From: Blautia wexlerae DSM 19850
GTDB taxonomy: Bacteria > Bacillota > Clostridia > Lachnospirales > Lachnospiraceae
Length of the DNA: 64,000 nt
Direction: 5' to 3'
Assembly (NCBI RefSeq): GCF_025148125.1
Contig: NZ_CP102267.1
Coordinates: 847,001-911,000 of the forward strand
The notes beneath the pieces are model-generated. The model was given only the letters and a program-made list of their open reading frames with translations. It did not search any database and was not told the origin of the DNA. Positions 32,084-64,000 of this stretch are shown piece after piece. The position numbers were made by a program, and so were the translations under genes. The stretch's first letter is position 1. Each line of letters opens with the position of its first letter.

Positions 32084-32335
32084 GTTGGGACATAAAAAGG
32101 AATAGTATGCGCCAACGAGGAAAGAAAAAAGACAATGTAGACAAAAAATATTACTAAAAAAAAGAATAAGGGTATATTGAAAATGTCTTAGATAGTTGAA
32201 CATAAAAAATAAGCATATAGATTGATACTGGGATATAGCTTCGGGGATTAGGATTTATGTTTATGTGAATATGAATTTTAAAAAAGAGAATGAACGTATG
32301 GAATAAGATCTAAAATGAAAGGGGGAATGAGTATA

Positions 32336-33322: not shown

Positions 33323-33340
33323 TAGATGATAGGAGAGTAA

Positions 33341-34441: not shown

Positions 34442-34442
34442 T

Positions 34443-45447: not shown

Positions 45448-45563
45448 TTTATGAGAGTGGTATGAAACCACAGGTATGATGACTACTGAATGAATAGGTT
45501 TGGCTTCTATGCATAGATATCATATGCAAATTCAAAATTTTTTACGTAATGGAGGAGATTATT

Positions 45564-48500: not shown

Positions 48501-48701
48501 GATGAAGAAGTAAGACATATGATGTTGTCTGCGAGAACACAAATTGCTATGGATATTATAAATGAAAATTACGATTGTGCAAGGTCTTATTTGCATGGGT
48601 ATAAGATACCAGGATTTATGACAGGAATCTCAGGAATGGGATACTCTCTATTAAGAGATTTGTACCCAGAATTACCATGCATTTTGGCTCTGGAGATTTA
48701 G
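45564..48701 (+). CDS. lanM: Bifunctional lanthionine synthetase LanM
   Basis: 1045 aa from ATG 45564 behind AATGGAGGAG. N-terminal dehydratase domain (DUF4135 type) with SDSHKKGNSVFLIQF, GRKIVYKPHGL, DIHTENLIANGGYPVVVDAE. C-terminal LanC-like cyclase with LSGLSHGITG (about 846), AAWCHGAPG (Cys about 911) and LCHGNLG (Cys-His about 961), the three zinc ligands. It dehydrates Ser/Thr and adds Cys thiols to give lanthionine rings in the LanA core. Confidence 0.95.
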   Translation: MDKNNCDNNSYFYERNYYKDVPIKDTQILEYWNNILGKDVIELIDKAYGVSIEQILFSEYSLNHKYISFATLNQEYSDMCNEKAISYLTKKGTKVLFDQFVLRFLGYGKRVLERKSRKGYIVKVVQDCFLKNLAERILDVSLSTLIFEMYLAKEQGELRGNDEAEEYKDYNQRFLGNDKYIKELFSIYPGLKRMLIELMENLANNYILLQERMEKDTLLLEDKFGGKKGWTEVKNIRTSGSDSHKKGNSVFLIQFQDGRKIVYKPHGLKVEKAYQSFLEFISSNCKKDFKQFLILDCGDYGWEEFVVNLPCNSEAEVRNYYYRIGVLVFCNYILNVNDIHTENLIANGGYPVVVDAETVLDNKRDKKKKSGREKIYDKIHESVLYSGVLPFYKYTKNGKGINMSALNGQEGEQYPILIPRLKNAGTSNMHYEYERPITQASNNLLRLGEKVKEPNQYIDEICEGFFDAYTFCLDNKKLILNYVSIFENIEVRHLVQDTQRYSMLLHTSYNPDFLQDAKDRQLFLCAVLKNVEQMQGNMEIAKLEIKDMLNMDIPYFYSNTSKEDLYGSEGEVVKNYFAESSIQHLRNKICSMGKKDREEQIRFIKIILTDLNDVKVEKPKKDINELCISRSDNEHGQKEYKKNAILKILHTLEQKAFYGDDGQDINWIGITSIGNSENSSWNIQPLGVYLYEGLGGIALFYNALQQSDFDVDLSAACKAFETMMFQYTDDMLERSTDLEKESSGAYAGEASVIYVYEVLYKITGKQKYLEYAEKHCKILEYALKADENNDLIYGNAGAVIVLLNLYHLAQKDIYLQLACEAGNILIKNQNKGKWCCGNGQSLSGLSHGITGIIYALTKLNNEQFHIEYQKAIHSGLIYENTMYSDKYNNWLDNREEAKKEENSDNRCMAAWCHGAPGILLARSKMYNLVKDSSDYITVQCDIERALFATKMYGFTDNDCLCHGNLGNTEILLEYSKECNDEEVRHMMLSARTQIAMDIINENYDCARSYLHGYKIPGFMTGISGMGYSLLRDLYPELPCILALEI

Positions 48702-48743
48702 GAGCGTAATTGCTAAGTAATATTTAACAAAGGGAGGAACTTG

Positions 48744-50840
48744 ATGTTTCAAAAAAAAGTGCATTATGTTTCACAGCTAGGAAGCATGGATTGTGGCATA
48801 GCATGTCTGACAATGATTCTTAATTATTACGGGTGTAAAAGTGATATCGTGGACATAGGGGCAGAGATTCAGATTGGCAGAGACGGTATGACCTTAGCTC
48901 AAATGAAAGAATTAGCAGAAAAGTATGGATTTAAATTTGCTGCATACCAGTATAATCATGAAGAAAAAAACTTAATAGAGTATCTTCCAGCCATTTTGTG
49001 TAATGATTCCCACTATGTGGTAGTTGATAAAACTAAGAAGAAAGGAAAATATATTCTGTTTGATCCAGCAAATGGAAAAAGAGTTGTCGATTTTTTAGAA
49101 TTAAAAAACGGATACAAGGATATTCTTGTATCCGTTATTCCAAGTAGAAATATTAAGAAAATAAAAAAAACCAAATTTAAAATAGAGGTAAAATTCTCTC
49201 AATTTATGATTGCAATTATGTTGATGCTTATGTGTCAACTTATTACATTAGCTGTTCCAATGGTTGTGCAAAAAGTAATAGATAGTTTATCTTCTGCCCA
49301 TATTACAATTCATATATGGAAAATTACACTTTTAGTTCTTCTGATTATGTGTGCCCATTTTGTATTGAGCTTACTAAGACAGAAAATTTTATTGAATATT
49401 AACATGAAACTTTTTAAAACAATGATTTCTAATATGATTCATAAAATTTTCCGTTTGGATGTAAGTTTTTTTGAATGGCATTCCGCAGGTGACATAGGGA
49501 ACCGTTTCAATAGTATAAATCAGTTGAACGACATTCTTACCAATGGATTTATAAACATTATAATCCAAGGGATTACATCCTTGGTATGTTTAGCTGTTAT
49601 GACCAGTATATCTCCATATTTGACTGCATTTGTTCTAGTTGTTTCTATTATACAGATCGCCATAATGATTTTATTAAATGGTAAAAATCTCATAAAGACG
49701 AAAGAGTATATATACTCACAGAGTACAATACAGGGAGAACTGATAGATACTCTGGAGAATATAATGGAAATAAAATGTATGGGGATGGATAATGCAGTTA
49801 AATCAAATTTACAAAATTCTTATAGTAAGTTAATAGAAAGATTCAAGGGAAAAACTCGAATTAGTAATTTGATGAATAGTTTTTCCTCAACCTTAAACTT
49901 GATTTTCCCTTTAATGATTTACGTGATTGGAAGTTATAGTGTGAAGCAAGGAGGGTTAACGATAGGACAACTTATAGCCTATGCAACCTTAGTGGGATAT
50001 TTTACAGCACCTTTTACTACCGTTGTATTGTTGTTACCGAGTATCAATAGTATTAAAGAAGTGCTTTTACGTTATAAGGAACTAATGATTTTTAGAGAAA
50101 ATTATCATACGGGAGTTCTTGTACCTGGAAAATTTGAAAATTTAAAAATAAGTTCGGTTTCATATTGCTACAATAGTGGGCAGGCATACGCATTGAATAA
50201 TGTTTCTCTTGATCTTAGGCGAGGCGAGAGAATTGCTATTGTTGGTTTATCGGGTAGTGGAAAATCAACCTTGATAAAAGCCATACTGGGTGCCGTGGAT
50301 ATTAATCAAGGATGTATTGAGATAAATAATTATGATATCAGATCAATGTCGAAGGAACAGATTTATAAATGGTTTTCAGTAGTTACTCAAAATCCTATGT
50401 GCTTAAATGCAAGTATAAGAAAGAATATTGATATTATAGGTGATGCTCCGGATGAGAAAATATGGAAGGTACTAGACATTGTAGCATTAAAAGAGGAAGT
50501 TTTAAGTATGCCGTTGGGATTGGATACACTTGTTGGAGAAGGAGGACAAAATATTTCAGGTGGTCAAAAACAGCGTATTGCCATAGCAAGAGCTCTGCTT
50601 AGCGATACGGAGGTAGTTATTTTTGATGAAGCTACCAGTAATCTGGATCAGCTTACAGAAAAGAAAATTTATGATAACCTAAGGTCTACCAATAAAACGC
50701 AAATTATCATTACTCATAGACTTTCCTCTATTCGAGATACGGATTATATCTATGTATTGAACAGGGGAAGCATCATTGAACAGGGAACACATTTGGATTT
50801 GATGAAGAAAAAGGGATGGTATTTTGAGAGTATTCAATGA
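48744..50840 (+). CDS. lanT: Peptidase-containing ABC exporter LanT
   Basis: 698 aa from ATG 48744 behind AAGGGAGG. N-terminal C39 protease: Cys17 in GSMDCGIACLTM, His about 89 in DSHYVVVD, Asp in FDPANG. Then six TMs and NBD: Walker A VGLSGSGKST, signature NISGGQKQRIAIARAL, Walker B VVIFDEATSNLD. It cuts after the double-Gly leader and exports the lantibiotic. Confidence 0.95.
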   Translation: MFQKKVHYVSQLGSMDCGIACLTMILNYYGCKSDIVDIGAEIQIGRDGMTLAQMKELAEKYGFKFAAYQYNHEEKNLIEYLPAILCNDSHYVVVDKTKKKGKYILFDPANGKRVVDFLELKNGYKDILVSVIPSRNIKKIKKTKFKIEVKFSQFMIAIMLMLMCQLITLAVPMVVQKVIDSLSSAHITIHIWKITLLVLLIMCAHFVLSLLRQKILLNINMKLFKTMISNMIHKIFRLDVSFFEWHSAGDIGNRFNSINQLNDILTNGFINIIIQGITSLVCLAVMTSISPYLTAFVLVVSIIQIAIMILLNGKNLIKTKEYIYSQSTIQGELIDTLENIMEIKCMGMDNAVKSNLQNSYSKLIERFKGKTRISNLMNSFSSTLNLIFPLMIYVIGSYSVKQGGLTIGQLIAYATLVGYFTAPFTTVVLLLPSINSIKEVLLRYKELMIFRENYHTGVLVPGKFENLKISSVSYCYNSGQAYALNNVSLDLRRGERIAIVGLSGSGKSTLIKAILGAVDINQGCIEINNYDIRSMSKEQIYKWFSVVTQNPMCLNASIRKNIDIIGDAPDEKIWKVLDIVALKEEVLSMPLGLDTLVGEGGQNISGGQKQRIAIARALLSDTEVVIFDEATSNLDQLTEKKIYDNLRSTNKTQIIITHRLSSIRDTDYIYVLNRGSIIEQGTHLDLMKKKGWYFESIQ

Positions 50841-51966: not shown

Positions 51967-52005
51967 AGCATCCATCAAACTTTCTCAGGGTTTATCGTGG
52001 ATGCT
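51967..52005 (-). terminator. Terminator of the small hydrophobic peptide gene
   Basis: AGCATCCA (51967-51974) and TGGATGCT (51998-52005), 8-bp perfect stem overlapping the peptide's stop codon on the minus strand. Confidence 0.55.
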
Positions 52006-52087
52006 ATTTCTTATCATGTCGATTATCTATGTAAGTCAGAGCCGCAAAAACTACTAAAAGCAATGTGAGTACTTCCATTGTGTTCAT
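52004..52087 (-). CDS. 27-aa hydrophobic peptide, type I toxin-like
   Basis: ATG 52087 behind AAAGGAGGGTGATGCCC. One membrane helix (MEVLTLLLVVFAALTYI) then a charged tail DNRHDKK: the layout of holin-like/TxpA-Fst type small toxins. A long structured 5' leader (52088-52200) includes CTATACTGAGCGAGTATAG, and the terminator overlaps the stop. An antisense RNA was not identified. Confidence 0.55.
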   Translation of the reverse strand: MNTMEVLTLLLVVFAALTYIDNRHDKK

Positions 52088-52240
52088 GGGCATCACCCTC
52101 CTTTAAAAACTAGAGGGCTGGTCGAAATTGCATCCGCATCTCTTTCTCGATTAGCTATACTCGCTCAGTATAGCATGGAATATCTTGTATCGCAATAAGA
52201 AATGGATGTAGTGAGCTCCTTTTCATATTGCTTTTGGTAA

Positions 52241-53170
52241 TCAGATATTTTGTTTGATAATCCTTGTAATGATGCCAACAGCAACATTCCGTTCTTCATC
52301 AATATGTGTCACAACAAAGGACACCTTATCTTTCTTCCCAACGGTGCGGCTGTCGTAGCAACTGTGAGCAATGGCGTTGACACCCAATTCTAACCGGACA
52401 AAAACAGTTCCTTTGTGGATGTCTTCCACCGTACCGGCATATTTTCCTTGTACCCGACAATTTTTCAGATTTTCTTTGCTGGTGTTGCCTTCCACGCTTT
52501 TTACATCTGCATGGATAGAGAGCGTTTCCGGGGAATCTCCCTGGATAGCTAAGATCCGGACCAGAATATGTTCCCCTACCTGGAATCGTTCCCTGGCATC
52601 ACCCAGCCAGTCAAAAGACAGATCTCTTGCAAGGATGGAAGTTTCTACACCAAAGATTTCTGCCCGGACTACTTTTTCAGCAACGGCAATGACTCTGGCC
52701 TGCACAATACGGTCTTCGTGGATTTTATTCTGTCCGGAAGAGTCCTGATCAAAATAGAAAATCTGACGTTTCTTCAGCATAGCATCTTTCCGGCTGGCAA
52801 CGATGCTTCTGGATTTGGTATCCAGTCCTTTGATTACAAAGTCGATTTCACTACCAAGCATGTTATTAAGGACTTTGTTCTGTCTAAGAGAGAAATCTCC
52901 GTAATCATGAGTTTCATCTTGGATCAGATTGATCATCATTTCCGAGATAGGGATGACTGCCCGATAATCTTTATAGTAAATAATTGCTATTAAGCTGCCG
53001 GCTTCGGTCTTTTCAATACCTCCCAGAATGCCGGTGAGAATTTTCCGGGTACGATAGGCATTTTGGATGTCATGCCAGATTAAATCCGCTTTTGATTGAG
53101 CAGTTTCTAATACAGTATCGGAGTCAAGGGTTAAAATAGGGGTGTTCAGGTTCATTGTTTCGTTTGCCAT
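52241..53170 (-). CDS. S1 RNA-binding domain protein of the ICE backbone
   Basis: 309 aa, ATG behind GAAAGGAGATAAC. An S1-like OB fold near the C-terminus: CRVQGKYAGTVEDIHKGTVFVRLELGVNAIAH, preceded by a second OB-like region (RIVQARVIAVAEKVVRAEIFGVETSILARDL). The N-terminal ~100 residues are mixed alpha/beta. Such proteins are common in Lachnospiraceae ICEs next to the coupling protein; RNA binding is inferred. A truncated second copy lies at 40126-40476. Confidence 0.8.
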   Translation of the reverse strand: MANETMNLNTPILTLDSDTVLETAQSKADLIWHDIQNAYRTRKILTGILGGIEKTEAGSLIAIIYYKDYRAVIPISEMMINLIQDETHDYGDFSLRQNKVLNNMLGSEIDFVIKGLDTKSRSIVASRKDAMLKKRQIFYFDQDSSGQNKIHEDRIVQARVIAVAEKVVRAEIFGVETSILARDLSFDWLGDARERFQVGEHILVRILAIQGDSPETLSIHADVKSVEGNTSKENLKNCRVQGKYAGTVEDIHKGTVFVRLELGVNAIAHSCYDSRTVGKKDKVSFVVTHIDEERNVAVGIITRIIKQNI

Positions 53171-53195
53171 AAATGTTATCTCCTTTCAAAATGTG

Positions 53196-55202
53196 TTATG
53201 ACATGATGGAATCTTTATCTAAAGGAACCATGCCAGAGTCGGGGGAATCTTCTATAAAATTTTCCTGAAAGAAATCCTCCATAAAATCATCGGGAGTAGG
53301 TTCCTGATAAACGGGTTCGGATGTAAAATGTGGTTTCTGTTTTGCTATTGACGCAGAAGATGAACGGCGTTTCCTTTTGGCTGATCCGGGTGAGGGCTGT
53401 GGTCGATACTCTGTTTCTTCCGAAGACCCATTTTTGCGCCATTCAGGTATGTGTTCCGATGCTTTTCTTGGTGTCAGCTTTTTGGCATCTGGATGCAGGG
53501 TATAATCGTACTTTTCTACTTTTAGGACTTTTTGCCCACGTAGGATAACCAAAGCAGTATCAAGCGGGAGCCGCAAGATTTCATCTGGTGTTAAGAGTTT
53601 TCGTTTGCCGATAGATTTTGTCTGCCGGTATTCCGGTGTATAGTCGGATACCCGCCAGCTATTGAGCTGCTTGGCTTCGCTGCTTACCCCTACGGTCACA
53701 TCGCCGCTGCGGTTGCTGATAAAGGTAGCAGTAACTTCATCTGTGCAGCCCAAAAAGAGCTGGGTATCACAGTTGCCAATGATTTCCTGCCATTGGTTAT
53801 AAGGATAGCGGTTCTGCATCTGGGGCAAATTCTGAAAGATGCAGGAAATGCTGAGATTCCGGCTTCGGATTACACTGATTTTCTTATTCAGTTCCAGGAT
53901 AGCTCCGGTGTTGGCAAGCTCATCAGCCAGTATATGTACAGCAACAGGAAGTTTTCCTTCTTCTCCATACTTATCTGCATAACGGACCAGTTTGATGAAG
54001 ATGAAGGTCATAAACAGGGAAGATAAAAAATCGAAGGTGCTGTCCTGGTCTGAGGTAATGCAAAAGTAAGCACATTTCTGTTTCCCTGGAAGTGTCAGAT
54101 CAATCTCATCATAAGAGGTAATCTGCCGAATGAGTTTATTCTGAAATACCTGAAGTCTGGCACCCAATCCGATAATAACTCCGCTTCGCACGGTATCACT
54201 GGCTTGTTTGTAGATGCAGTAAGGAACTTTTGCTGGATGGGACACTGGGAGCAGATCAAAAAGACTGTTCAGCTCCTTTTCGGAACTCATGGTCAGCAGC
54301 TTATAAACCTGTCCAATATTTCTGGCTTCCGGCGGAAAGCCCTGATCTACATAGAGAACCAGGGCTTTTAGCAGGTTCATCTCCGCATTATCCCAGAAAT
54401 GATCTCCTTTTCCGGAACCTGTATTCTGGATAATGACATCTGCAAATACCTGAGCCATCGTTTCTTGTCCATTGATTTCACCCAGACAATTCCAACTATC
54501 CGAGTTTTCCGGATTGACCAGATTAAATGCTTTTACTACATAGCCCTCATTTTCCAGATAAGCAGACATGCTTTCATAGAGTTCGCTTTTGGGATCGGTA
54601 ATGATTAAACTTTCCCCGGAAGCGTTGTTGCCTTCCTGCCCTCTGGCGACACACTGGAAAATCATATTCCTGGCAAATGCCCTGGATTTCATGGAACCGC
54701 TGGCACCATACACGGCGATATTTTTATTCATTCGTGTTTGATATGGAAGACATACGGCTTTGCCATTTAATTTTCCTAAAATGGTTCCTTTATTTTTCTT
54801 GACATCTCCGGTCAGTTCCAAAACTTTCATCATTTCATCTGGAGTCATGAATCCGGATGTACCGTAGGTTCCTTTTGTAGAGTAATTTAAGTTCCGGTCA
54901 TGGTCACTAATTTCCCCGTTTCTGTCATATCCCATACGCATAAGTAAAAAAGTAAGAAGCCCAAAGAGAACCAGGCAAAGAAAAATCCCATACAAATTGT
55001 ATGGGAAATCGGTAAGGGCGGTATGAAAGCAGACCAATGGGTGTAAAGAAGCTGCTTGCGGATAGGTTCCGTTGCCGGCAAAGTTTCCGGCAGAAGTCCA
55101 TTCCTGATAGTTTTTAATAAATTGTGCTGCGTATCCTCCGGCATACAGAGTGCAGACGCTTATGGGAAGCAAAAACAGGAACTTCCACCATTTACGGTTC
55201 AT
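53196..55202 (-). CDS. VirD4/TraG-type coupling ATPase
   Basis: 668 aa from ATG 55202 behind AAAGGAGG. Two N-terminal membrane segments (FLFLLPISVCTLYAGGY, GIFLCLVLFGLLTFLLM). Walker A in VYGASGSMKSRAFARN (about residue 155), Walker B in HILADELANTG, and the VirD4 motifs FCITSDQDSTF, SCIFQNLPQM, and FLGCTDEVTATFIS. Couples the relaxase-DNA complex to the channel. The tail (~90 residues) is acidic/Ser-rich. It overlaps the previous gene's end by 11 bases. Confidence 0.9.
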   Translation of the reverse strand: MNRKWWKFLFLLPISVCTLYAGGYAAQFIKNYQEWTSAGNFAGNGTYPQAASLHPLVCFHTALTDFPYNLYGIFLCLVLFGLLTFLLMRMGYDRNGEISDHDRNLNYSTKGTYGTSGFMTPDEMMKVLELTGDVKKNKGTILGKLNGKAVCLPYQTRMNKNIAVYGASGSMKSRAFARNMIFQCVARGQEGNNASGESLIITDPKSELYESMSAYLENEGYVVKAFNLVNPENSDSWNCLGEINGQETMAQVFADVIIQNTGSGKGDHFWDNAEMNLLKALVLYVDQGFPPEARNIGQVYKLLTMSSEKELNSLFDLLPVSHPAKVPYCIYKQASDTVRSGVIIGLGARLQVFQNKLIRQITSYDEIDLTLPGKQKCAYFCITSDQDSTFDFLSSLFMTFIFIKLVRYADKYGEEGKLPVAVHILADELANTGAILELNKKISVIRSRNLSISCIFQNLPQMQNRYPYNQWQEIIGNCDTQLFLGCTDEVTATFISNRSGDVTVGVSSEAKQLNSWRVSDYTPEYRQTKSIGKRKLLTPDEILRLPLDTALVILRGQKVLKVEKYDYTLHPDAKKLTPRKASEHIPEWRKNGSSEETEYRPQPSPGSAKRKRRSSSASIAKQKPHFTSEPVYQEPTPDDFMEDFFQENFIEDSPDSGMVPLDKDSIMS

Positions 55203-56298
55203 TGAAAAACCTCCTTTTAAACTTTTGAAAATCAATGCTGGAGAAGTGTATATCTGCAGTTAGGTATTTTTTCAGGCAGGGAAGCTGAAAGTCAAAGCAA
55301 ATCAGGTTCCCGGATAGCCCATATACATTTAATCCAGTATTGAAGCGGTTGATACGCTGCATGTCAAAATCATACGCAAGCAAAATAGGATTTTCCTGGC
55401 TGTCTATTCCATCATGTTCAATTGGCAGATCCTCACGCTGGGGAAAACAGTCGGACAGTAGTAGCTGATTGAGCTGCATCATACGCTGGGGTTGTACCAA
55501 TAAACGGAGCAGGTATTCTCCGTAGCTGTTATTGGGCAGGAAATAGAAGTGTTCATACGAAGTATCCAGCATGAACAGTGTTTTTTTGTATCCACCGGTA
55601 CTGGTAAGGAGCCGGAAAGCCATATCCATATCACTGCCAGTCATGATGGCATAAACGGTAGGTGGCCCATGGTAAGGAAGTCCCTGAAGATAGTGCTGCA
55701 AAAAAGCATTGAGTCGGACTTCCGTTTTGTATTCCCATTTTAGAAGTGTATTTCCGGTATTATAAACAGCATAGACACAGTGAGGAGCCATCAGGATTCC
55801 TATACAACGGGAATTTTTAATTTTGGTAGTGGATGCTCCAAGATTTTTTATTTCTCTGGAAGAGTAAAACAGAGGAAGGCTTCGCACAGGAAACGTAGCC
55901 GCTTCGCTGGATTCAGAAAAAAGCAGCGGCTTTTCATCTGGAAAGAATGGGATTCCGGCATGTGAAAGCGTTAAATAGGTTTCTGCTTTTTGATGAAGTC
56001 GCAGCCGTCTTGGTAATTCACTACGTATGAGGTTGGTTTCTGCATTTCCGGTTAAATAGTTTTGAAAACGACAGGGATTTTGCGAAAGCAGCAGTTCTTT
56101 TGCCCGTTTGGTAAGGCGATAACCTCGTAGGCCATCTTTATAGTGTGTTCTTATAAGCTTACTCTGCTTTAAATCTGTAACCACCTTCTCTGCATAGGAA
56201 TCACTCTCAATCAATCTGTTAAGCTGTCCGGAAGGGAATTCCCCACATAGCCCAACCATTTCCAAAAGCTGATATTTTATAGAATCGGTTTTTATCAA
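55192..56298 (-). CDS. Replication-relaxation-like winged-helix protein
   Basis: 368 aa from TTG 56298 behind GAGGTGATGC. N-terminal winged helix: LLEMVGLCGEFPSGQLNRLI, VVTDLKQSKLIRTHYKDGLRGYRLTKRAKEL. The middle and C-terminal regions (YAVYNTGNTLLKW, YAIMTGSDMDMAFRL) resemble replication-relaxation family proteins found beside TraG in Firmicute ICEs. May act in DNA processing at transfer start. The 140 bases upstream hold paired GGGTAA/TTACCC half-sites and a small hairpin, but no gene. Confidence 0.65.
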   Translation of the reverse strand: MIKTDSIKYQLLEMVGLCGEFPSGQLNRLIESDSYAEKVVTDLKQSKLIRTHYKDGLRGYRLTKRAKELLLSQNPCRFQNYLTGNAETNLIRSELPRRLRLHQKAETYLTLSHAGIPFFPDEKPLLFSESSEAATFPVRSLPLFYSSREIKNLGASTTKIKNSRCIGILMAPHCVYAVYNTGNTLLKWEYKTEVRLNAFLQHYLQGLPYHGPPTVYAIMTGSDMDMAFRLLTSTGGYKKTLFMLDTSYEHFYFLPNNSYGEYLLRLLVQPQRMMQLNQLLLSDCFPQREDLPIEHDGIDSQENPILLAYDFDMQRINRFNTGLNVYGLSGNLICFDFQLPCLKKYLTADIHFSSIDFQKFKRRFFNEP

Positions 56299-56437
56299 AT
56301 AAGCATCACCTCAGTTCGATTTTTACCTATGACAGCCTATACTTGGGTAAAGTAAGGGCGGTATTAAGCATTAAAAATGCAAAGAATATGGCTTCTTTGC
56401 AGAAAAATTACCCATATCGGAAAAAGAAAGAAAAATA

Positions 56438-57103
56438 TCAGGAAATTTCCGATATGGTTTTGATAGACTCTTTTCTATCTTTCAGCCAGCCAGGAAAGAT
56501 TTCCGGTTCCATTACAAAGATAACGGTGTGATCGTAATTCCCCAGTTCCGTAGTGTGATAGGAGTCGCAAAAGAGTCCCGTATCATCAACCAGAACATAG
56601 GAAGCGATAGTATCTAAAATCTGTTTGAACTCCAAATTATCGTAATCACGTATCCGTTGTAAAGAAAGGCTCTGGTCATAAATTTGACTAAAACAGACCA
56701 CACATCTTTTATATAACGGAATAGAATGTTCTGTCACATAAGTCTGCAAGGCAAGGTTTAATGGCTCATGTAGAAAAGCGGTGTTGGTTCGCAATTTACG
56801 TTTGGGCAGTAGTCCTGGCATGGTAATGGAAAGAACACTATTTGAAAAAGAGATTTTGATTCCCTGCACAGCCGCAGCCTGTTTCAGATAGTCTTTCTTT
56901 CCAGTGTCAGTTGTGGTATATACCAGATTTCTGAGCTGGCAGGCAATCCTTTCAGAACGCAAGGCAGCACTGATACTCAGCTCTTCGTATTTGTCGGCAT
57001 ACGCTTGAATATCTGTTGTTTTCAATGCAAAAATAGTGTTGTGAAGTTTTTGGACTTCATCATCAATGCTCTGTAAACGGTCAAAAACAGTTTTGGTGTT
57101 CAT
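56438..57103 (-). CDS. DUF6100-like ICE protein
   Basis: 221 aa from ATG 57103 behind ATGAGGT. Begins with a helical part VFDRLQSIDDEVQKLHNTIFALKT and NAALRSERIACQLRNLVY-like segment, matching what I recall of DUF6100 proteins; the C-terminal half is alpha/beta (YKRCVVCFSQIYD, HTVIFVMEPEIFPGW). Overlaps neither neighbour; second gene of block 1. Function unknown. Confidence 0.6.
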   Translation of the reverse strand: MNTKTVFDRLQSIDDEVQKLHNTIFALKTTDIQAYADKYEELSISAALRSERIACQLRNLVYTTTDTGKKDYLKQAAAVQGIKISFSNSVLSITMPGLLPKRKLRTNTAFLHEPLNLALQTYVTEHSIPLYKRCVVCFSQIYDQSLSLQRIRDYDNLEFKQILDTIASYVLVDDTGLFCDSYHTTELGNYDHTVIFVMEPEIFPGWLKDRKESIKTISEIS

Positions 57104-57110
57104 ACATACC

Positions 57111-57641
57111 TCATTTCTTTGCATAATAGCTGACAGATCCGGTAGAGGAGTCTACAAGGCAAAAGGCAATCACACCTGTGATATGGATTTTTGAAGCCTG
57201 TTCTTCCGATTCTAATACAACCAGCCGTTTCGCATCGCTTTTTGTCTGGCTTTCCATGACATGATTGATAAGATATTCATGCTCCTGGGGGACATAGAGG
57301 ACTTCATACCATTCATCTTTAGAGAAAAAGTTCAATTTCACAGGAAATTCACCGTCAGTATGGTACACAATGGCGTTTTTGAAGTCCAAAAGCACCCAAA
57401 AAGATGCAATCATTCCATAATCAGGATTGTTTGCAGATTCCTGGCTGTCGCAGAGAAGCCCGTTCTCCTTATCATAGATAATGCGTTTTTGTTTTACCAG
57501 ACTGGTGATCAGAGACTTGATAGACTCTCTGTTTTTGGAAAAGAGCCGTAAGATCTGTTCATATTGCAGCGAATGGTAAGTTGTAATGAACCGGAGCAGT
57601 TGGGCACCTTCCCCTTGATAGATTTCATTTCTTGTTTTCAT
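57111..57641 (-). CDS. DUF5697-like winged-helix ICE protein
   Basis: 176 aa, ATG behind GAAGGGAG. The first ~70 residues look like a winged helix (GAQLLRFITTYHSLQYEQILRLF, IKSLITSLVKQKRIIYD), followed by an alpha/beta part (FWVLLDFKNAIVYHTDGEFP). I recall this pattern as DUF5697. It begins block 1, next to the DUF6100-like gene. Possibly a regulator of transfer. Confidence 0.6.
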   Translation of the reverse strand: MKTRNEIYQGEGAQLLRFITTYHSLQYEQILRLFSKNRESIKSLITSLVKQKRIIYDKENGLLCDSQESANNPDYGMIASFWVLLDFKNAIVYHTDGEFPVKLNFFSKDEWYEVLYVPQEHEYLINHVMESQTKSDAKRLVVLESEEQASKIHITGVIAFCLVDSSTGSVSYYAKK

Positions 57642-57675
57642 GGTAATCTCCCTTCATTATATAATAGGAAGTTTT

Positions 57676-57740
57676 ACCTACACTGTACGCACAGAATACG
57701 TTTTTATTTTAGGGGAAGTACGCTGTACGTACTGTGTAAG
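57676..57740 (-). other. Large leader hairpin of block 1
   Basis: TACACTGTACGCACAGAATAC (about 57679-57699) pairs with GTACGCTGTACGTACTGTGTA (about 57718-57738) with only three or so mismatches. It lies in the RNA leader just before the first gene, after the terminator hairpin. Possible antitermination, translation control or protein-binding site. Confidence 0.5.
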
Positions 57741-57774
57741 TATTGGCTACTGTCAGCGAAAGGTTTACGGGTAC

Positions 57775-57797
57775 AAAAAAAGCACCGATTAAGGTGC
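57775..57797 (-). terminator. Leader terminator of block 1
   Basis: GCACC/GGTGC stem at 57782-57796 followed on the minus strand by seven Ts. Short stem but a clear T-tract, between the shared upstream element and the first gene. Confidence 0.55.
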
Positions 57798-57834
57798 CAG
57801 AAAAAATAGGAATACTATAAGCAATATCAATTGT

Positions 57835-57875
57835 AACATGGGTAAAATTACCCTTCAATCGCAGAAGTGTGCCAA
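57835..57875 (-). promoter_or_regulatory. 41-nt element shared with the block 2 upstream region
   Basis: Matches 32043-32083 at 34 of 41 positions. In this copy GGGTAAAATTACCC (57840-57853) is a perfect 14-bp palindrome, suitable for a dimeric regulator. Lies about 195 bases before the first gene of block 1. The stretch 57876-58113 to the right holds only the promoter area of locus D. Confidence 0.6.
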
Positions 57876-58113
57876 TGTAGTGACACAATTATGTTGCAAT
57901 GAATGACTATGAAAATATATTTCATCAAAATAATTCATACAGATTATTTTATAATAATTGAAATTAATCAGCCATGTGTTGCCTATGTCCAAAGAGATAA
58001 AAAAAAGTGCAAAAAAAACAATAAATATGGTTGTAAATGCTATGACATGGTATAAAGAATGTACTAATACATAAAAAAGTATTGGAAAGACAAAATGTGA
58101 AGGAGGTGACAAA

Positions 58114-58254
58114 ATGAGTGTATATGAAACACCAAAAAGCGAAGGCGTAGAGCAGAAAAAACGTGTTGATTTAGGCTGTGGAGTAAACTGTGATTGGGGC
58201 TTCGGAGCAGGCATAGCGATTGCAATGATTGGTCCATTACCAGGACCAACGTAA
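58114..58254 (+). CDS. Locus D RiPP precursor, 46 aa
   Basis: ATG 58114 behind GAAGGAGGTGAC. Charged leader (MSVYETPKSEGVEQKKRVD) and a core starting about residue 20: LGCGVNCDWGFGAGIAIAM, then IGPLPGPT. Cys22 and Cys26, one Trp, Gly/Ala/Ile-rich stretch and a Pro-rich end. Immediately followed by a terminator hairpin, then by a PqqD-like protein and four radical SAM enzymes. Ile, Val, Pro, Gly and aromatic residues offer sites for C-methylation; Cys for thioether links (inference). No known precursor family recognised. Confidence 0.8.
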   Translation: MSVYETPKSEGVEQKKRVDLGCGVNCDWGFGAGIAIAMIGPLPGPT

Positions 58255-58261
58255 TGGTGAG

Positions 58262-58294
58262 AAAGCGTTTCTCAGAAAAGAGAAACGCTTTTTT
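58262..58294 (+). terminator. Attenuator after the locus D precursor
   Basis: AAGCGTTTCTC and GAGAAACGCTT form an 11-bp perfect stem with loop AGAAAA, followed by TTTT. Gives excess precursor over enzymes. Confidence 0.85.
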
Positions 58295-58316
58295 AGAATT
58301 ATACATTCATTAAAAT

Positions 58317-58595
58317 ATGATTAAACGAGAAGACATATTACATAAAACAACTTATGTTTGGAAAGAAAATGAAAAATATACCAGTATCATAAAAAATGAT
58401 GGCAGTAGGGTGATTTTAAATAAAAAAGATTCTGATATCTGGAAAATAATCAATGACGATGATACCGTGGATGATATTATCCGTCATATGAAGGATACAA
58501 TGAGTGCTAATCAGGTTGAAGACAGGTTAGAGGAATTTATTAAAATTGGTATTATAACTAACGAAGATATGTTTTGGGGGGATGACTTATTATAA
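58317..58595 (+). CDS. PqqD-like RiPP recognition element protein
   Basis: 92 aa. Pattern of a stand-alone PqqD-type winged helix: three strands (YVWKENEKYTSIIKNDGSRVILNKKDSDIWKII) then helices (TVDDIIRHMKDTMSANQVEDRLEEFIKIGII). Such proteins bind the leader and present the precursor to modifying enzymes. No clear ribosome site; translation may rely on an AT-rich leader. Followed by the first cobalamin-type radical SAM gene after 8 bases. Confidence 0.8.
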   Translation: MIKREDILHKTTYVWKENEKYTSIIKNDGSRVILNKKDSDIWKIINDDDTVDDIIRHMKDTMSANQVEDRLEEFIKIGIITNEDMFWGDDLL

Positions 58596-58603
58596 AAAAG
58601 ATT

Positions 58604-59878
58604 ATGCTTATTATGCCAAACAGTAATAAGAATAAGCAGGTGGGATATTCAGAGAAGATGACAATGCCTCCTCTAGGTCTAATTTCCATTGGAGGATATC
58701 TTAAAATGCACGGTTATATGGTAGAAATACTTGATTTATTTACAAATCATATAAGGAAACAGGAATTTATAGATAAAATAAAAAATGCACATCCGGATAT
58801 GATAGGAATAAGTGCATATACAGAAAATATTAATGCGGTTATCCATTTAACAAAGATAATTAAATCGGTGTTGCCAAAAATAATTATTGTTTTAGGTGGA
58901 GCACATGTGACTTTTTTGCCGGAAGAAGCTTTGCATCATAATACAGTTGATTATGTGTGCCGTGGAGAAGGAGAAATGACTTTTGTACAACTATTGGAGT
59001 GCCTTAATTATCATACGATTGATTTGTCAGAAGTGAAAGGAATTTCATATCGTGTAGGACAGGAGATTATACATAATGCAGATCGAGGATATATTGAAAA
59101 TCTGGATAATTTACCGTGGGCAGAACTCGATGAAATTGAAATGCGAAGCTATGATATCAAGCAATTGATTATTACAAGTAGAGGATGTCCAGGAAAGTGT
59201 ATCTATTGTGCTTCAGCTGCTCTATCGGGAACACGTTATAGAAATCGAAGCGCTCAAAATGTATTCAGTGAAATACATTATAAATATAGTATAAAAGGAG
59301 AGAAATACTTTGCTTTTTTGGATGATACTTTTACAGCAAATAAGAAGCGATTGTATCAGTTTTGTGATTATCTAAAGCAAGCCAATATGAATATAATATG
59401 GCGTTGTGATTCGAGGACAGATATTTTATCAAAGGAAATGATTGATAAAATGCAGGAAGTAGGGTGTACATCCGTACATATAGGTATAGAAAGCGGATCT
59501 CAAGATGTTATTAACAAAATTAATAAACATATAAGTTTAGAAAGGTCTGAAGAATTACTTGCATATATGTCGCAAAAAGGGCTTCAAGTAATGTGTTCTT
59601 TTATCATAGGGCATCATTGCGATACACATGAGACAATAAAAGAAACAATAGATATGGCACTGAAATTTCGTAAAAAGTATAAAGCAACTGTAGGTATAAG
59701 CATCAATACCCCTTTCCCAGGCACATATCTATATAATCATATGAAGGATTTAGGAATTAATTTGGAAATCAAAAATTGGTCTTCATTCGATTTAGTTCAG
59801 GCTGTATTTAGTACACCTAATATTACAAGAGCTGAGTTGCAAAATTATTATTATGAAATTCAATCAATGGTGATTTAG
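58604..59878 (+). CDS. Cobalamin-binding radical SAM enzyme 1 of locus D
   Basis: 424 aa from ATG 58604. A few residues more (IIKKI) are open upstream, so an ATT/ATA start near 58590 is possible. N-terminal ~140 residues: B12-binding Rossmann-type domain (MPPLGLISIGGYLKMHGYMVEILD, IIVLGGAHVTFLPEE). It lacks the DxHxxG motif, as usual in this class. Radical SAM cluster CPGKCIYC near residue 195, then AFLDDTFTANKKR and IGIESGSQDV. Members of this class methylate unreactive carbons or rearrange backbones; here the likely substrate is the 46-aa precursor. Confidence 0.9.
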   Translation: MLIMPNSNKNKQVGYSEKMTMPPLGLISIGGYLKMHGYMVEILDLFTNHIRKQEFIDKIKNAHPDMIGISAYTENINAVIHLTKIIKSVLPKIIIVLGGAHVTFLPEEALHHNTVDYVCRGEGEMTFVQLLECLNYHTIDLSEVKGISYRVGQEIIHNADRGYIENLDNLPWAELDEIEMRSYDIKQLIITSRGCPGKCIYCASAALSGTRYRNRSAQNVFSEIHYKYSIKGEKYFAFLDDTFTANKKRLYQFCDYLKQANMNIIWRCDSRTDILSKEMIDKMQEVGCTSVHIGIESGSQDVINKINKHISLERSEELLAYMSQKGLQVMCSFIIGHHCDTHETIKETIDMALKFRKKYKATVGISINTPFPGTYLYNHMKDLGINLEIKNWSSFDLVQAVFSTPNITRAELQNYYYEIQSMVI

Positions 59879-59889
59879 AGGAGGAAATT

Positions 59890-60069
59890 ATGGAACGAAT
59901 TGTTGTAGAATTAAAGGGAAATTTAACTTTCTGTGGAGTGGATAAAGGTGAGATATGTATTGAAGGTGAAAATGGAATATTGGTAGAAACAGATACAAAA
60001 AGCGGATTAAAAGTTTGGTGTCCAATAAAATCAATTGTTAAAAAGCATGAAATTAGAATAGAGGAGTGA
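59890..60069 (+). CDS. 59-aa small protein of locus D, unknown
   Basis: ATG 59890 behind GAGGAGG. Beta-rich sequence (MERIVVELKGNLTFCGVDKG, GILVETDTKSGLKVWCPIK), Cys15, Cys23 and Cys45. It overlaps the next gene's possible GTG start. Not leader-core-like, so more probably a small accessory such as a binding protein or immunity factor than a precursor. No family recognised. Confidence 0.65.
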   Translation: MERIVVELKGNLTFCGVDKGEICIEGENGILVETDTKSGLKVWCPIKSIVKKHEIRIEE

Positions 60070-60074
60070 GAGGA

Positions 60075-61415
60075 ATGAAAATTTCATTAAATAAAAACGT
60101 TATTATAAAAGACTATGAAACCAAAGGGCTATTAATCGATGTAGAAAGAGCGGATTACAGGAAAGTCAACAGTTCTGGTCTCACCATTTCTAAATTTTTA
60201 AATAAGTATGGCGAAATATCAGTGGAAGAGTTACTTCTAAAATTATCGGATTTATATGAACTTCCTGAAGAAGTGTTTGGAGAGGAGGTTCAACAGTTTT
60301 TGGATGATATGATCGAAAAAGGTTTTTTTGTTAAAGATGGTGATTATTCTAGAATAGAAACAGAGGAAACCATTTGTCACCAGACGTCTAATGGGATTTG
60401 GATTAAAGTGACTAATAGATGTAATTTGAGATGTAGCTATTGCTATGCGGATTCTGGAGAAGGAGAAGCTAACGAATTAACGATAGAAGAAATAGAGAAT
60501 CTTCTTATAGAATTAAAACCGAAAAATTATAATAAAATAGTCATTACCGGTGGAGATCCTTTGATGAGGAAAGATATAGTTGAAATTTTAAAAACTTGTA
60601 AAAAGTATGGAAAAGTTCAAATTTTAACAAATGGAACTATTGGAAATGCAGAATTATATAGAGAAATTATGGAGATAGTAGATGCAATTCAAATTTCTTT
60701 AGACTCTTATGAAGAAATACATCATGATAAAAATAGAGGAAAGGGAAGTTTTGTGCGCGCTGTAAATACGGTAAAAACTCTAACACACATTAATAACAAA
60801 AAAGTGATAGTTGCAATGACACCAACTCCAGATTATATGCCGGATATCGTTGAAATGATAAAATTTTGTCTAAATATGAATGTTAGACAATTACATATCA
60901 ATAGATTTGTTCCCTATGGTCGAGCTAAAACTTTTGAAAATAAATTAAATATGGAGCAGTTTTATAAATGGGTGGATAGAGGATATGATTTTTTGCGAAA
61001 TATCTATATTAACTATTATAAACAAAATAAGGAATTTATATTTAATATAGATGTTTCGAATGATTTATGTAATCAAGTATACTCAAAAGGAAGAAAAACA
61101 TCATGCGGTGTTAATTGCAACCAGATTAGTATTGATAGTAATGGTAACGTATATTTGTGTCCTTCCTTACACATTGAAGAATTTGAACTGGGTAATATAA
61201 GAACAGATAATATTACTGAGATTATGGAAAAAAGTAAACAAAAATATGGAGAAATAGATGTCGAAATGTTATCTAAGTGTAAGAACTGTGAGATTAAATA
61301 TTATTGTGGCGGAGGATGTAGAGCAATCGCATTTAATGAAACAGGCGACTTATATGGACAGGAGAGAAATTGTGACAATTATAGGAACAGAGTGTTTGAT
61401 TTAATGCTGCAGTGA
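60075..61415 (+). CDS. Radical SAM/SPASM enzyme 1 of locus D
   Basis: 446 aa from ATG 60075 (GAGGAG eight bases upstream; GTG 60066 is less likely). The first ~100 residues look like a fused PqqD-type leader-binding domain (GLTISKFLNKYGEISVEELL). Radical SAM: TNRCNLRCSYCYAD near 115, VITGGDPLM. SPASM: TSCGVNCNQISIDSNG, YLCPS, CKNCEIKYYCGGGCRAI and RNCDN. Expected to install thioether or C-C crosslinks in the precursor. Confidence 0.9.
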   Translation: MKISLNKNVIIKDYETKGLLIDVERADYRKVNSSGLTISKFLNKYGEISVEELLLKLSDLYELPEEVFGEEVQQFLDDMIEKGFFVKDGDYSRIETEETICHQTSNGIWIKVTNRCNLRCSYCYADSGEGEANELTIEEIENLLIELKPKNYNKIVITGGDPLMRKDIVEILKTCKKYGKVQILTNGTIGNAELYREIMEIVDAIQISLDSYEEIHHDKNRGKGSFVRAVNTVKTLTHINNKKVIVAMTPTPDYMPDIVEMIKFCLNMNVRQLHINRFVPYGRAKTFENKLNMEQFYKWVDRGYDFLRNIYINYYKQNKEFIFNIDVSNDLCNQVYSKGRKTSCGVNCNQISIDSNGNVYLCPSLHIEEFELGNIRTDNITEIMEKSKQKYGEIDVEMLSKCKNCEIKYYCGGGCRAIAFNETGDLYGQERNCDNYRNRVFDLMLQ

Positions 61416-61454
61416 TAAAGCCACACAGAAACGAAGCGGAGAGTGATCTGAAAA

Positions 61455-62690
61455 ATGGAAAATATATATGGCTTTGCAGAACAATTATCTATAAAGAAGA
61501 GAATAGATAATAAGATAGTGATAAGTGGTTTAAATAATGGCAATTGGGTGCTAAGTCAAATTGAATCTATAGTCTTGCAGGAGTTTAATGGCGGTAGAGA
61601 TTTAGAGGAGATTCTAGCAATACTCCCGGGCAGGGAAGTGAGCATTATAAAAATTTACGAGAATTTTATTGATAAAGGAATTTTAGTTAAGAACTCTGCT
61701 AGAAAAATTGATTTGTCAGCTAAATGGACTTTGGATGAAGTGTTTTTTGAATTGACAAAACAATGCAATTTAAGATGTCATCACTGTTATATACCAAAGG
61801 AGATTGAGAAAAAGGAGCTAGGATTAGAAAAGTGGTTTCAGATTGTTGATTCCTGTAAAGATTTAGGAGTAGGTTTAATAAAATTAACTGGTGGAGAAGC
61901 AATGCTGCATCCCCATTTTTGGGATATAGTTAAATATATTAATAAAAATGGGATATCAATGCGTTTATATACGAATGGTTCTTGCTTGAATAAAAAAACA
62001 GTGGAGAATTTGAAAACAGTGGGAATTTCAGAGATTCAGATTAGTTTAGATGGTGGAACTGAAGAAACGCATGATACATTTCGCAATGCTCCTGGTAATT
62101 ATAAACATATTTTAAGAACACTTCCTATTTTGAGCCGATTTGAAATAAGAGTGATTTTATCATTTACAGTAACAGATTACAATGTAAACGAAATTAATCT
62201 CTTTATACGAGAAGCAAGGCAGTTTCCTAATGTGAAAATTGTAATTAGTCCATATATTAACTATCATCAGACTTATCAAGGAGATAGATTTGTAGATGTT
62301 AGCGAAGAAACAGTAGAAAAGCTAAAAGAATGTTTTGAGGATAATAAGAATATTTGGTCAGATAAAATCAAATATTCTTTGTCATTTTCCAATCGTTTTA
62401 TAGGTTATTGTGGGTTTGGAATTTATAGTTTATACATAGATTCTTTTGGTAAGATTATTTTATGCCCATTATTGGGAAATATACAACTTGGAACTATAAC
62501 GGATGGAATAGAAAATATCTGGGAAAATAGTAAAATATTAATGGAATATAGAAGTCATACAATAGCAGATATAGAAAAGTGTAATACTTGTAAAAATGTA
62601 AATGTATGTAAAGGCGGTTGTAGGGCAAGGGCATATTTTATTAATGGTTCGATACTGGCTTGTGATCCGGTCAGTTGCAAAATGTATTAG
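61455..62690 (+). CDS. Radical SAM/SPASM enzyme 2 of locus D
   Basis: 411 aa; ATG 61455 with GAAGCGGAGAG upstream. Small PqqD-like N-terminal domain (residues 1-90), then TKQCNLRCHHCYIPK near 105, KLTGGEAML and SLDGGTEETHD. SPASM: YCGFGIYSLYIDSFG, ILCPLLG, CNTCKNVNVCKGGCRARAY and ACDPVSC. Distinct from enzyme 1 in sequence, so probably acts on a different residue or step. Ends 8 bases before the next gene. Confidence 0.9.
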   Translation: MENIYGFAEQLSIKKRIDNKIVISGLNNGNWVLSQIESIVLQEFNGGRDLEEILAILPGREVSIIKIYENFIDKGILVKNSARKIDLSAKWTLDEVFFELTKQCNLRCHHCYIPKEIEKKELGLEKWFQIVDSCKDLGVGLIKLTGGEAMLHPHFWDIVKYINKNGISMRLYTNGSCLNKKTVENLKTVGISEIQISLDGGTEETHDTFRNAPGNYKHILRTLPILSRFEIRVILSFTVTDYNVNEINLFIREARQFPNVKIVISPYINYHQTYQGDRFVDVSEETVEKLKECFEDNKNIWSDKIKYSLSFSNRFIGYCGFGIYSLYIDSFGKIILCPLLGNIQLGTITDGIENIWENSKILMEYRSHTIADIEKCNTCKNVNVCKGGCRARAYFINGSILACDPVSCKMY

Positions 62691-62698
62691 GAGTTAGA

Positions 62699-63991
62699 AT
62701 GAAGGTTGAAAAAGTCTTATTGATTAATTGTACATTGGATAAGCATAGTAGGGCTAAGATTCATAATGTAGTATCATCACCCAATTTAGGTCTGCTATCA
62801 ATTGCGGGTGTACTGATAATGCATGGATATGATGTGAAAATATTAGATTTTTTTGCTGATCCAATAAAGAAAGAGCAATATAAGAAAATATTAGAAGAAT
62901 TTAATCCAGATGTGATTGGATATTCTGTATATACAAGAACTGTTCCGTTTTTAAGAAGGATGGTTGAGCTAAACAAAAAGATAGGGTATGAGGGAATTAC
63001 AGTGGTTGGAGGACCACATCCATCATTTAATGAAAGAGAAATGCTTGATGATATAGGAGCAGATTTTGTTATTAAGGGGGAGGGTGAGTTTACATTTTTA
63101 AAACTCCTTGAAAGCTTAAAATATCCTGTACAATATCCAATCAGTAGAGTAAAAGGAATTAGTTATAGGATTAAAAATGATATATACATATCAGAAAAAA
63201 TAGAATATATAGAAAATCTTGATGCATTACCGTTACAAGCAATTGGAATTATTGACCCAGAGAAGTATTCAACAGCATTTACACTGATTACAAGCAGGGG
63301 ATGTCCTGGAAATTGTGTTTATTGTGCATCTAGAGCGTTGTCTGGAAATAAATATCGAATGCGTTCCGCAGAGAATATTATCTGTGAAATTTATTTTCTG
63401 AGTGAAAAGCTGAATTCCAGAAAGTTTTTAATTTTAGATGATACATTTACGGCTAATAAGGAAAGATTAGAATATTTTTGCTTATTACTCTCTAAGTATA
63501 ACGAAAAGTATGCATTTAGAATTGAGTCGCGCGTGGATGCTGTTAGAGAAAAAGATATAGATGCATTGAAGAAGGTAGGGTGTGAAGTTATTCACTTTGG
63601 AGTGGAAAGTGGTTCACAAGAGATAATTAAAAAGATTGGAAAGAATATTAATTTATCTTGGGCAAAGGAAATAATGTGTTATGCGAATAAGCAAAATATA
63701 CATGTAGTTGCGAGTTTTATAATTGGTCATTTCTGTGATACAGAACGCACAATTCAAGAAACGATTAGTTTAATGGAAATATTAAGAAATTCTGGAATAG
63801 AGGTTTCGGTTGCTGGATGCGTACCATTTCCGGGAACGCCTTTATATGAGCATAAGGATAAACTGGGAATTTCTATACACGCACATTCATGGCAAGAATA
63901 TGATTTTAGTAATATGATTATTAGTACCTCTTATTTAAGCCAAGAACAATTAAGGGAGTTACTGTTTAGTGCTGTGACGAAGATATCTTGA
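62699..63991 (+). CDS. Cobalamin-binding radical SAM enzyme 2 of locus D
   Basis: 430 aa from ATG 62699 behind TTAGGAG; a longer frame overlaps the previous gene. B12-binding region SSPNLGLLSIAGVLIMHGYDVKILDFF and VVGGPHPSFNE; radical SAM cluster CPGNCVYC near residue 203; LILDDTFTANKERL, FGVESGSQEIIKKIG. Clearly paralogous to the enzyme at 58604 (shared TSRGCPG, CAS-ALSG, DDTFTAN). Last gene before the edge; the locus probably continues with transport genes. Confidence 0.9.
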   Translation: MKVEKVLLINCTLDKHSRAKIHNVVSSPNLGLLSIAGVLIMHGYDVKILDFFADPIKKEQYKKILEEFNPDVIGYSVYTRTVPFLRRMVELNKKIGYEGITVVGGPHPSFNEREMLDDIGADFVIKGEGEFTFLKLLESLKYPVQYPISRVKGISYRIKNDIYISEKIEYIENLDALPLQAIGIIDPEKYSTAFTLITSRGCPGNCVYCASRALSGNKYRMRSAENIICEIYFLSEKLNSRKFLILDDTFTANKERLEYFCLLLSKYNEKYAFRIESRVDAVREKDIDALKKVGCEVIHFGVESGSQEIIKKIGKNINLSWAKEIMCYANKQNIHVVASFIIGHFCDTERTIQETISLMEILRNSGIEVSVAGCVPFPGTPLYEHKDKLGISIHAHSWQEYDFSNMIISTSYLSQEQLRELLFSAVTKIS

Positions 63992-64000
63992 TATATTTAG

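Follow-up and report, generated by a model that had tools for sequence, protein, structure and literature searches.

A candidate RiPP operon in Blautia wexlerae that combines SPASM and B12-binding radical SAM enzymes around one short precursor

What can become of one short peptide when four radical S-adenosylmethionine (SAM) enzymes of two kinds are encoded beside it? The question is raised by an operon at 58114–63991 of a stretch of Blautia wexlerae DSM 19850 DNA, referred to here as the window (64,000 nucleotides, bases 847001–911000 of the 4.69-Mb genome, on one contig). Every gene of the operon lies on the + strand. The first-pass annotation of this DNA had listed a 46-residue peptide, a hairpin, a PqqD-like protein, a pair of B12-binding radical SAM enzymes, two SPASM enzymes and a 59-residue protein; open reading frames (ORFs) and Pfam domains place each of these parts where it had been put, on that strand and in the same order. 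A short, gene-encoded precursor that is kept together with its modifying enzymes, the mark of a ribosomally synthesised and post-translationally modified peptide (RiPP), is seen in a second complete operon, that of genome G237 (assigned to Ruminiclostridium herbifermentans, from another family), and in 11 links through matching contigs. On balance, we favour the reading that the SPASM enzymes form thioethers on the core cysteines and the B12 enzymes alter carbons of the same peptide, which is then exported or guarded against.

A short precursor conserved beside its enzymes

The precursor frame (58114–58254, + strand) follows a strong ribosome-binding site, AGGAGGTG. The first-pass annotation had taken its 46-residue product for the substrate, which is now likely given its conservation beside the enzymes in G237 and its family of 43 proteins, and had assigned it to no recognised family, in agreement with the lack of a fitting family among the Pfam and NCBIfam models. 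The single sequence retrieved 15 homologous proteins and a six-row profile retrieved the 43, near-identical ones counted. Our alignment comprises 31 rows (30 homologues and the window's own). The 13 of the 43 that were omitted are P0001–P0011, which are near-identical, truncated or have broken ends, and P0070 and P0076, which are longer forms of P0066 and P0075. The leader would span about residues 1–21 and the core about residues 22–46, where we infer a boundary at C22. Without modification, such a core (C22–T46) has a mass of 2416.138 Da.

The 25 residues of the core follow a nearly invariant pattern, CGxNC[ND]xGFGxGxxI...GPLPGPT, and the mean frequency of the top residue over the 31 rows is 0.84 for positions 22–46 versus 0.46 for residues 1–21. 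C22 is present in 30 of 31 rows and C26 in all 31; N25 is likewise found in 30 of 31, and position 27 is N or D throughout (31/31). The other fixed or nearly fixed positions are G23, G29, F30, G31, G33, I36 and the closing GPLPGPT, which ALPAPGP replaces in two rows. Residue 28 is variable (W in 21 rows, T in seven, N in two and M in one). The final residue (residue 46, codon 58249–58251) is T in 29 rows, S in one and C in one; because its beta carbon always bears a side-chain oxygen or sulfur, it may itself take part in the chemistry. Main-group leaders begin roughly as MxVYExPxS and then diverge in both length and sequence as far as C22, and the divergent precursors P0077–P0088 (other than P0083) join different leaders to the same core. 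The core codons of the window and G237 show 11 synonymous and five non-synonymous differences, with a non-synonymous divergence (dN) of 0.16 versus a saturated synonymous divergence (dS) of 2.2 by one method; a second method yielded no value.

Conservation extends from the precursor to the whole gene set. G237 holds orthologues of all nine genes with 49–71% identity, so the listed parts are not a chance assembly; the neighbourhood check that the first-pass annotation had suggested for the peptide and its gene order thus returned the same operon. Its listed genes stand, whereas its extent was incomplete, since it missed a transporter pair past the end of the window as well as the tie between the 59-residue protein (p59) and B12 enzymes described below. 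This pair, an ABC ATPase (284 residues) followed by an ABC-2 permease (216 residues), is encoded at L007 7023–8530 on the same strand as the operon, 31 bases after B12-radical SAM enzyme 2. In G237 the order is precursor, PqqD-like protein, B12 enzyme 1, p59, SPASM 1, SPASM 2 and B12 enzyme 2, with two differences: one ABC exporter is inserted before SPASM 2, and the ATPase/permease pair lies divergently upstream. Identities between the two operons are 63% for the precursor, 49% for the PqqD-like protein, 71% for p59, 53% for SPASM 1, 50% for SPASM 2, 65% for B12 enzyme 1, 60% for B12 enzyme 2, 60% for the ATPase and 49% for the permease. Two R. herbifermentans proteins, precursor P0061 and SPASM 1 homologue P0031, are both tied to G237.

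Precursor and SPASM 1 are also linked beyond these two genomes. For 11 of the 43 precursor proteins, the longest contig equals, to the base, that of a SPASM 1 homologue (45 proteins on the SPASM 1 side), one such pair coming from Alkaliphilus hydrothermalis; a control in which the lengths were randomly perturbed by up to 10% gave a mean of 0.04 matches and a maximum of one in 2000 trials. When 391 genomes of the class were searched with profiles of SPASM 1 (E ≤ 1e-110) and of the precursor (E ≤ 1e-4), each profile matched the identical two and nothing else. The SPASM 1 profile found no additional operon at E ≤ 1e-110 in sets of 11, 58 and 398 genomes. Within 150 genomes of the family, B12 enzyme 1 led to one further genome, G024; its locus was rejected as the same operon, being a different cluster whose listed ORFs do not include this precursor. 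Plasmid sequences gave no match to SPASM 1, to window positions 52000–64000 or, by tblastn, to the precursor, and a divergent precursor matched neither plasmids nor phages. Scans with the precursor pattern returned seven stretches in genome contigs and seven and three in viral contigs, none of which was confirmed. Scans with broad SPASM 1 patterns gave at least 80 loci in genome contigs, the G237 operon not being among those listed, and 80 in viral contigs; both sets were used as background sequence. The shorter pattern GPLPGP matched in 18 of 175 loci, five of which duplicate the G000 and G237 sites.

Such constancy bears on what the product is for. A cofactor-like or signalling peptide, with its core held invariant for recognition by a protein or receptor and with no antibacterial role, would suit a core that hardly varies over 31 sequences; PQQ-, mycofactocin- and SCIFF-type systems likewise have cores of this kind. 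We nevertheless consider this quite improbable: the spread is patchy, with the precursor in one of 64 genomes of the genus (as is SPASM 2, at E ≤ 1e-40) and the operon in two of 391 of the class, a type IV secretion system coupling-protein gene for conjugation (53196–55235) lies 2.9 kb upstream, and the ABC ATPase/ABC-2 permease pair has been retained with the operon. The core conservation and the transporter pair together suggest that the product may have a specific bacterial target. In the reading that we favour, the pair would export the product or shield the producer, and the product would most likely be an antibacterial peptide.

Recognition and the four radical SAM enzymes

The first step would be recognition of the leader. 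The stand-alone PqqD-like protein (58317–58595, + strand; 92 residues), a candidate RiPP recognition element, scores 16.4 against a Pfam PqqD cut-off of 23.4 (E 0.012), and its G237 orthologue is above the cut-off at 25.0. A recognition element is present in the operon in any case, as the PqqD domain fused in SPASM 1 exceeds the Pfam cut-off. Comparisons with hhalign were unconvincing: with the SPASM 1 domain, the PqqD-like protein and the N-terminus of SPASM 2 gave probabilities of 3.5–3.7% (3.5%, E 0.012, for the pair of stand-alone proteins), and the two gave 5% when compared directly. Judged by fold and sequence, two parts may bind the leader, the PqqD-like protein and the corresponding domain of SPASM 1.

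SPASM 1 (60075–61415, + strand; 446 residues with the N-terminal PqqD-like domain) more likely starts at ATG 60075 than at the start called earlier. Like SPASM 2 (61455–62690, + strand; 411 residues), it carries the Pfam domains Radical_SAM and SPASM, and its CxxxCxxC motif and seven downstream cysteines are kept in 24 of 24 aligned rows. In both fold and profile comparisons, SPASM 1 is matched best by 5why/5wgg (over residues 7–446 of its model), entries titled for thioether bond formation that we take to be CteB; among PDB sequences, SkfB is the closest to SPASM 2. These enzymes would attach Cys22 and Cys26 to nearby residues through radical thioether links. Asn25 and Asn/Asp27 are the first candidate partners, because the known ranthipeptide acceptors are Asn and Asp (Asn in NxxcA and Asp in freyrasin, according to the available part of PMC8326336). 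Alternatively, the SPASM enzymes might epimerise residues or form C–C or C–O links and leave the cysteines to another use such as a disulfide. This seems improbable to us, given that CteB and SkfB, these best matches, are both thioether enzymes and that the two cysteines are so nearly universal in the family (30 and 31 of 31 precursors).

The two remaining radical SAM enzymes, B12 enzyme 1 (58604–59878, + strand; 424 residues) and B12 enzyme 2 (62699–63991, + strand; 430 residues from ATG 62699, a more likely start than the one called earlier), belong to the broad B12-radical SAM class: both have the Pfam domains B12-binding and Radical_SAM and a CxxxCxxC motif (CPGKCIYC and CPGNCVYC). The first-pass description of a paralogous B12 pair beside two different SPASM enzymes agrees with their identities in the window, 40% for the former and 26% for the latter; the B12 pair of G237 is 43% identical. 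Since orthologues (65 and 60%) are closer than paralogues, the B12 pair predates the split of the two operons, and the roles of its members are old and separate. Each enzyme, the first with p59, would make its own change at an unreactive carbon; the simplest would be C-methylation within the Ile/Val-rich stretch or close to the C-terminal Thr.

Whether that change is a methylation bears on the likeliest competing account, in which the same RiPP operon has B12 enzymes that oxidise, crosslink or rearrange the core in the manner of BchE or PbsB. NCBIfam scores, taken from the best 25 matches per enzyme and read against the curated cut-offs of the models, lean this way at first sight: among the matches listed, both B12 enzymes score highest with BchE, then with HpnJ and ApyD, all above TIGR03975, the RiPP C-methyltransferase model. 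TIGR03975 itself gives 105 and 70 versus a cut-off of 281.85, and ApyD 173 and 142 versus 750; because all scores are far below cut-off, they decide nothing on the B12 chemistry. Precedents exist on both sides. The available portion of PMC12257519 describes PbsB as a B12-radical SAM enzyme that crosslinks the aryl rings of ortho-tyrosines, and that of PMC13142503 has BchE oxidising while linking the class predominantly to methylation. ApyD, a near match of our enzymes, beta-methylates Tyr (PMC11117315, as far as available). We therefore rate an oxidising, crosslinking or rearranging role as somewhat unlikely and keep C-methylation as the preferred assignment; since the top scores are BchE and heme enzymes, the division into SPASM crosslinkers and B12 methylators is a working guess. 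The leader would finally be cleaved near residue 21/22 by a protease encoded outside the operon.

Several observations weigh against this scheme as a whole. No operon enzyme reaches the cut-off of a thioether or C-methyl NCBIfam family among the matches listed, where SPASM 1 is best matched by WgkB and SPASM 2 by the heme b synthase AhbD and NirJ, which are not peptide maturases; the top scores of SPASM 2 and of the B12 enzymes (BchE) thus fall in families that do not modify peptides. None of the divergent precursors P0077–P0088 other than P0083 could be linked to a SPASM 1 homologue, and P0083 lacks Cys22 even though it is linked to one of 46% identity. No protease gene was found among the operon genes, in the window plus the downstream stretch. 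Beyond the window, one complete operon was read, that of G237, the further links being through contigs of equal length. Finally, the modified peptide is a prediction from the genes, no product having been observed.

p59 and its relatives

Between B12 enzyme 1 and SPASM 1 lies the gene for p59 (59890–60069, + strand; 59 residues), which matches no NCBIfam family and has one chance-level Pfam match below cut-off. DUF5825 was not matched at E 0.1 in our Pfam copy, in which the presence of that model is unchecked, and a predicted fold was set aside as too poor for use (predicted local distance difference test score of 54). Both orthologues keep two cysteines, and conservation runs along the whole length.

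The clue to p59 comes from its relatives. A two-row profile gave eight matches at E ≤ 0.01 in the 391 class genomes, namely the two owners of the operon and six others. In G505 (E 1.2e-4) and G483 (E 8.6e-4), proteins of 74–76 residues match from the profile start to residue 51–52, and their genes directly adjoin B12-radical SAM genes whose products share 37–38% identity with B12 enzyme 1 and 33% with B12 enzyme 2. The partial matches in G347 (E 4.9e-4), G566, G275 and G471 have no B12 enzyme within 3 kb, and the E-value alone fails to separate the two groups, because G347 outranks G483. When a five-member profile was run against 29,283 ORFs (40–250 codons) of the collected loci, the top non-member was a 79-residue protein near the G024 B12 enzyme (E 0.033), followed by the G347 frame (E 0.053), which is weak support.

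Because p59-like genes adjoin related B12-radical SAM genes elsewhere, p59 is probably a small partner of B12 enzyme 1 and, more widely, of one clade of these enzymes. There is a precedent for a partner protein in clavusporin biosynthesis, where a B12-radical SAM/DUF5825 pair C-methylates (available text of PMC12257519). That p59 might instead be a second substrate with no partner role is suggested by its small size and its two cysteines common to both orthologues; we give this very little credence, since conservation is spread from end to end with no division into leader and core, and in the relatives that adjoin other B12 enzymes the length is different and the first cysteine missing.

The loci that contain these relatives are of several kinds. 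G505 (L185 4771–16107) has a short-chain dehydrogenase/reductase (SDR) gene, three B12-radical SAM enzymes, two p59-like proteins and a protein of the non-ribosomal peptide synthetase (NRPS) type with two condensation stretches and adenylation and carrier domains. G483 (L186 2435–11577) encodes a LanM-type synthetase, a C39-peptidase ABC transporter, a 797-residue protein with no Pfam match, the p59-like protein and a B12-radical SAM enzyme; the transporter is two genes and the synthetase three genes ahead of the p59-like gene, and a lanthipeptide with B12 chemistry is a possible product. G024 (L176 5190–15358) holds two short peptides (38 and 40 residues) with many small residues, an SDR gene, ABC-like genes, a B12-radical SAM enzyme that has 37% identity with B12 enzyme 1 and the 79-residue protein, together with what by eye are a methyltransferase and an aminotransferase; it appears to be another peptide cluster, to which we assign no name.

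Genomic setting and relation to known pathways

A hairpin with a T-rich 3' arm (58258–58295, + strand; 16 pairs) separates the precursor from the enzyme genes. The segment 58250–58300 folds at −21.3 kcal/mol (z −6.4), with none of 200 shuffles as stable, and G237 likewise has a strong hairpin 3' of its precursor (z −6.5) without a long T run. A simple terminator scan did not include the hairpin in its list; it is a putative terminator- or attenuator-like element or mRNA stabiliser. Promoter predictions (44 found versus 47.8 expected) could not be distinguished from chance.

Besides the coupling-protein gene, the window contains a VirB4-like gene at 24118–27300 (Pfam P-loop_TraG; the VirB4 label is our own), and owing to these two genes the operon may travel on a conjugative element. 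Downstream, L007 9109–9243 holds a remnant of an ABC transporter ATPase with 44% identity over 45 residues to the window transporter at 48741–50840; as a leftover of the exporter inserted in G237 it was rejected, having no match to it. Two other peptide-type loci lie in the window. Positions 32315–35678 encode a subtilase-family protein and then a pair of radical SAM proteins, of which one carries SPASM, and positions 45549–50840 a LanM-type lanthionine synthetase and a C39-peptidase ABC transporter, a class II lanthipeptide locus.

The operon shares features with several known systems and differs from each. SPASM 1 stays below the cut-offs of the ranthipeptide and SCIFF maturases (CteB, PapB), scoring 112.5 versus 340 for PapB and 98.7 versus 425 for SCIFF, and its precursor has two cysteines rather than six. 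Among sactipeptide maturases, the likeness is the SkfB match of SPASM 2, whereas the scores of SPASM 1 and SPASM 2 are again below cut-off (147 and 112 of 625 for StsB, 95 and 92 of 300 for SkfB), as is that of SPASM 2 for AlbA (92 of 850), which is absent among the matches listed for SPASM 1; the window precursor matches none of the Pfam or NCBIfam entries. The SynChlorMet cassette (ScmD, ScmE, ScmF) likewise joins, by its family names, a PqqD-like protein to two SPASM enzymes, but its models remain below cut-off (115 versus 400 for ScmE, 106 versus 400 for ScmF and 13.7 versus 100 for ScmD), and to our knowledge it has no B12 enzymes.

Other pathways share the B12 chemistry. In that of polytheonamide, PoyB is a B12-radical SAM methylase beside PoyC, and the core is larger than the one described here. 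This proteusin combines the radical SAM epimerase PoyD and B12-radical SAM methylation on one peptide; it differs in its nitrile-hydratase-like leader and in having epimerisation in place of cysteine chemistry (available part of PMC8326336). The aminopyruvatide (ApyD) and biphenomycin-like (PbsB) pathways likewise make RiPPs and include a B12-radical SAM enzyme, but they use a multinuclear non-heme iron-dependent oxidative (MNIO) enzyme and a P450 or arginase, and the accessible portions of PMC11117315 and PMC12257519 name no SPASM enzyme.

In the literature searched, whose coverage excludes most subscription papers and all figures, we found no description of this precursor or gene set, and the strings GPLPGPT and NCNWGFG do not occur in the full texts searched. 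The recurrence of this operon, with its core little changed, in a member of a different family suggests a family of natural products not yet described. More tentatively, this may be an undescribed RiPP class in which radical crosslinks on cysteine and B12-dependent carbon modification meet on an almost invariant 25-residue core and, at the same time, p59 may stand for an as yet unnamed family of small proteins whose partners are the B12-radical SAM enzymes of a single clade, in RiPP clusters as well as in lanthipeptide-type and NRPS-type ones. As a small, complete operon with a nearly fixed substrate, it would allow the two radical chemistries to be separated enzyme by enzyme, and would make two questions testable: what radical SAM chemistry gains from B12 other than methylation, and whether such an enzyme needs a tiny partner protein.

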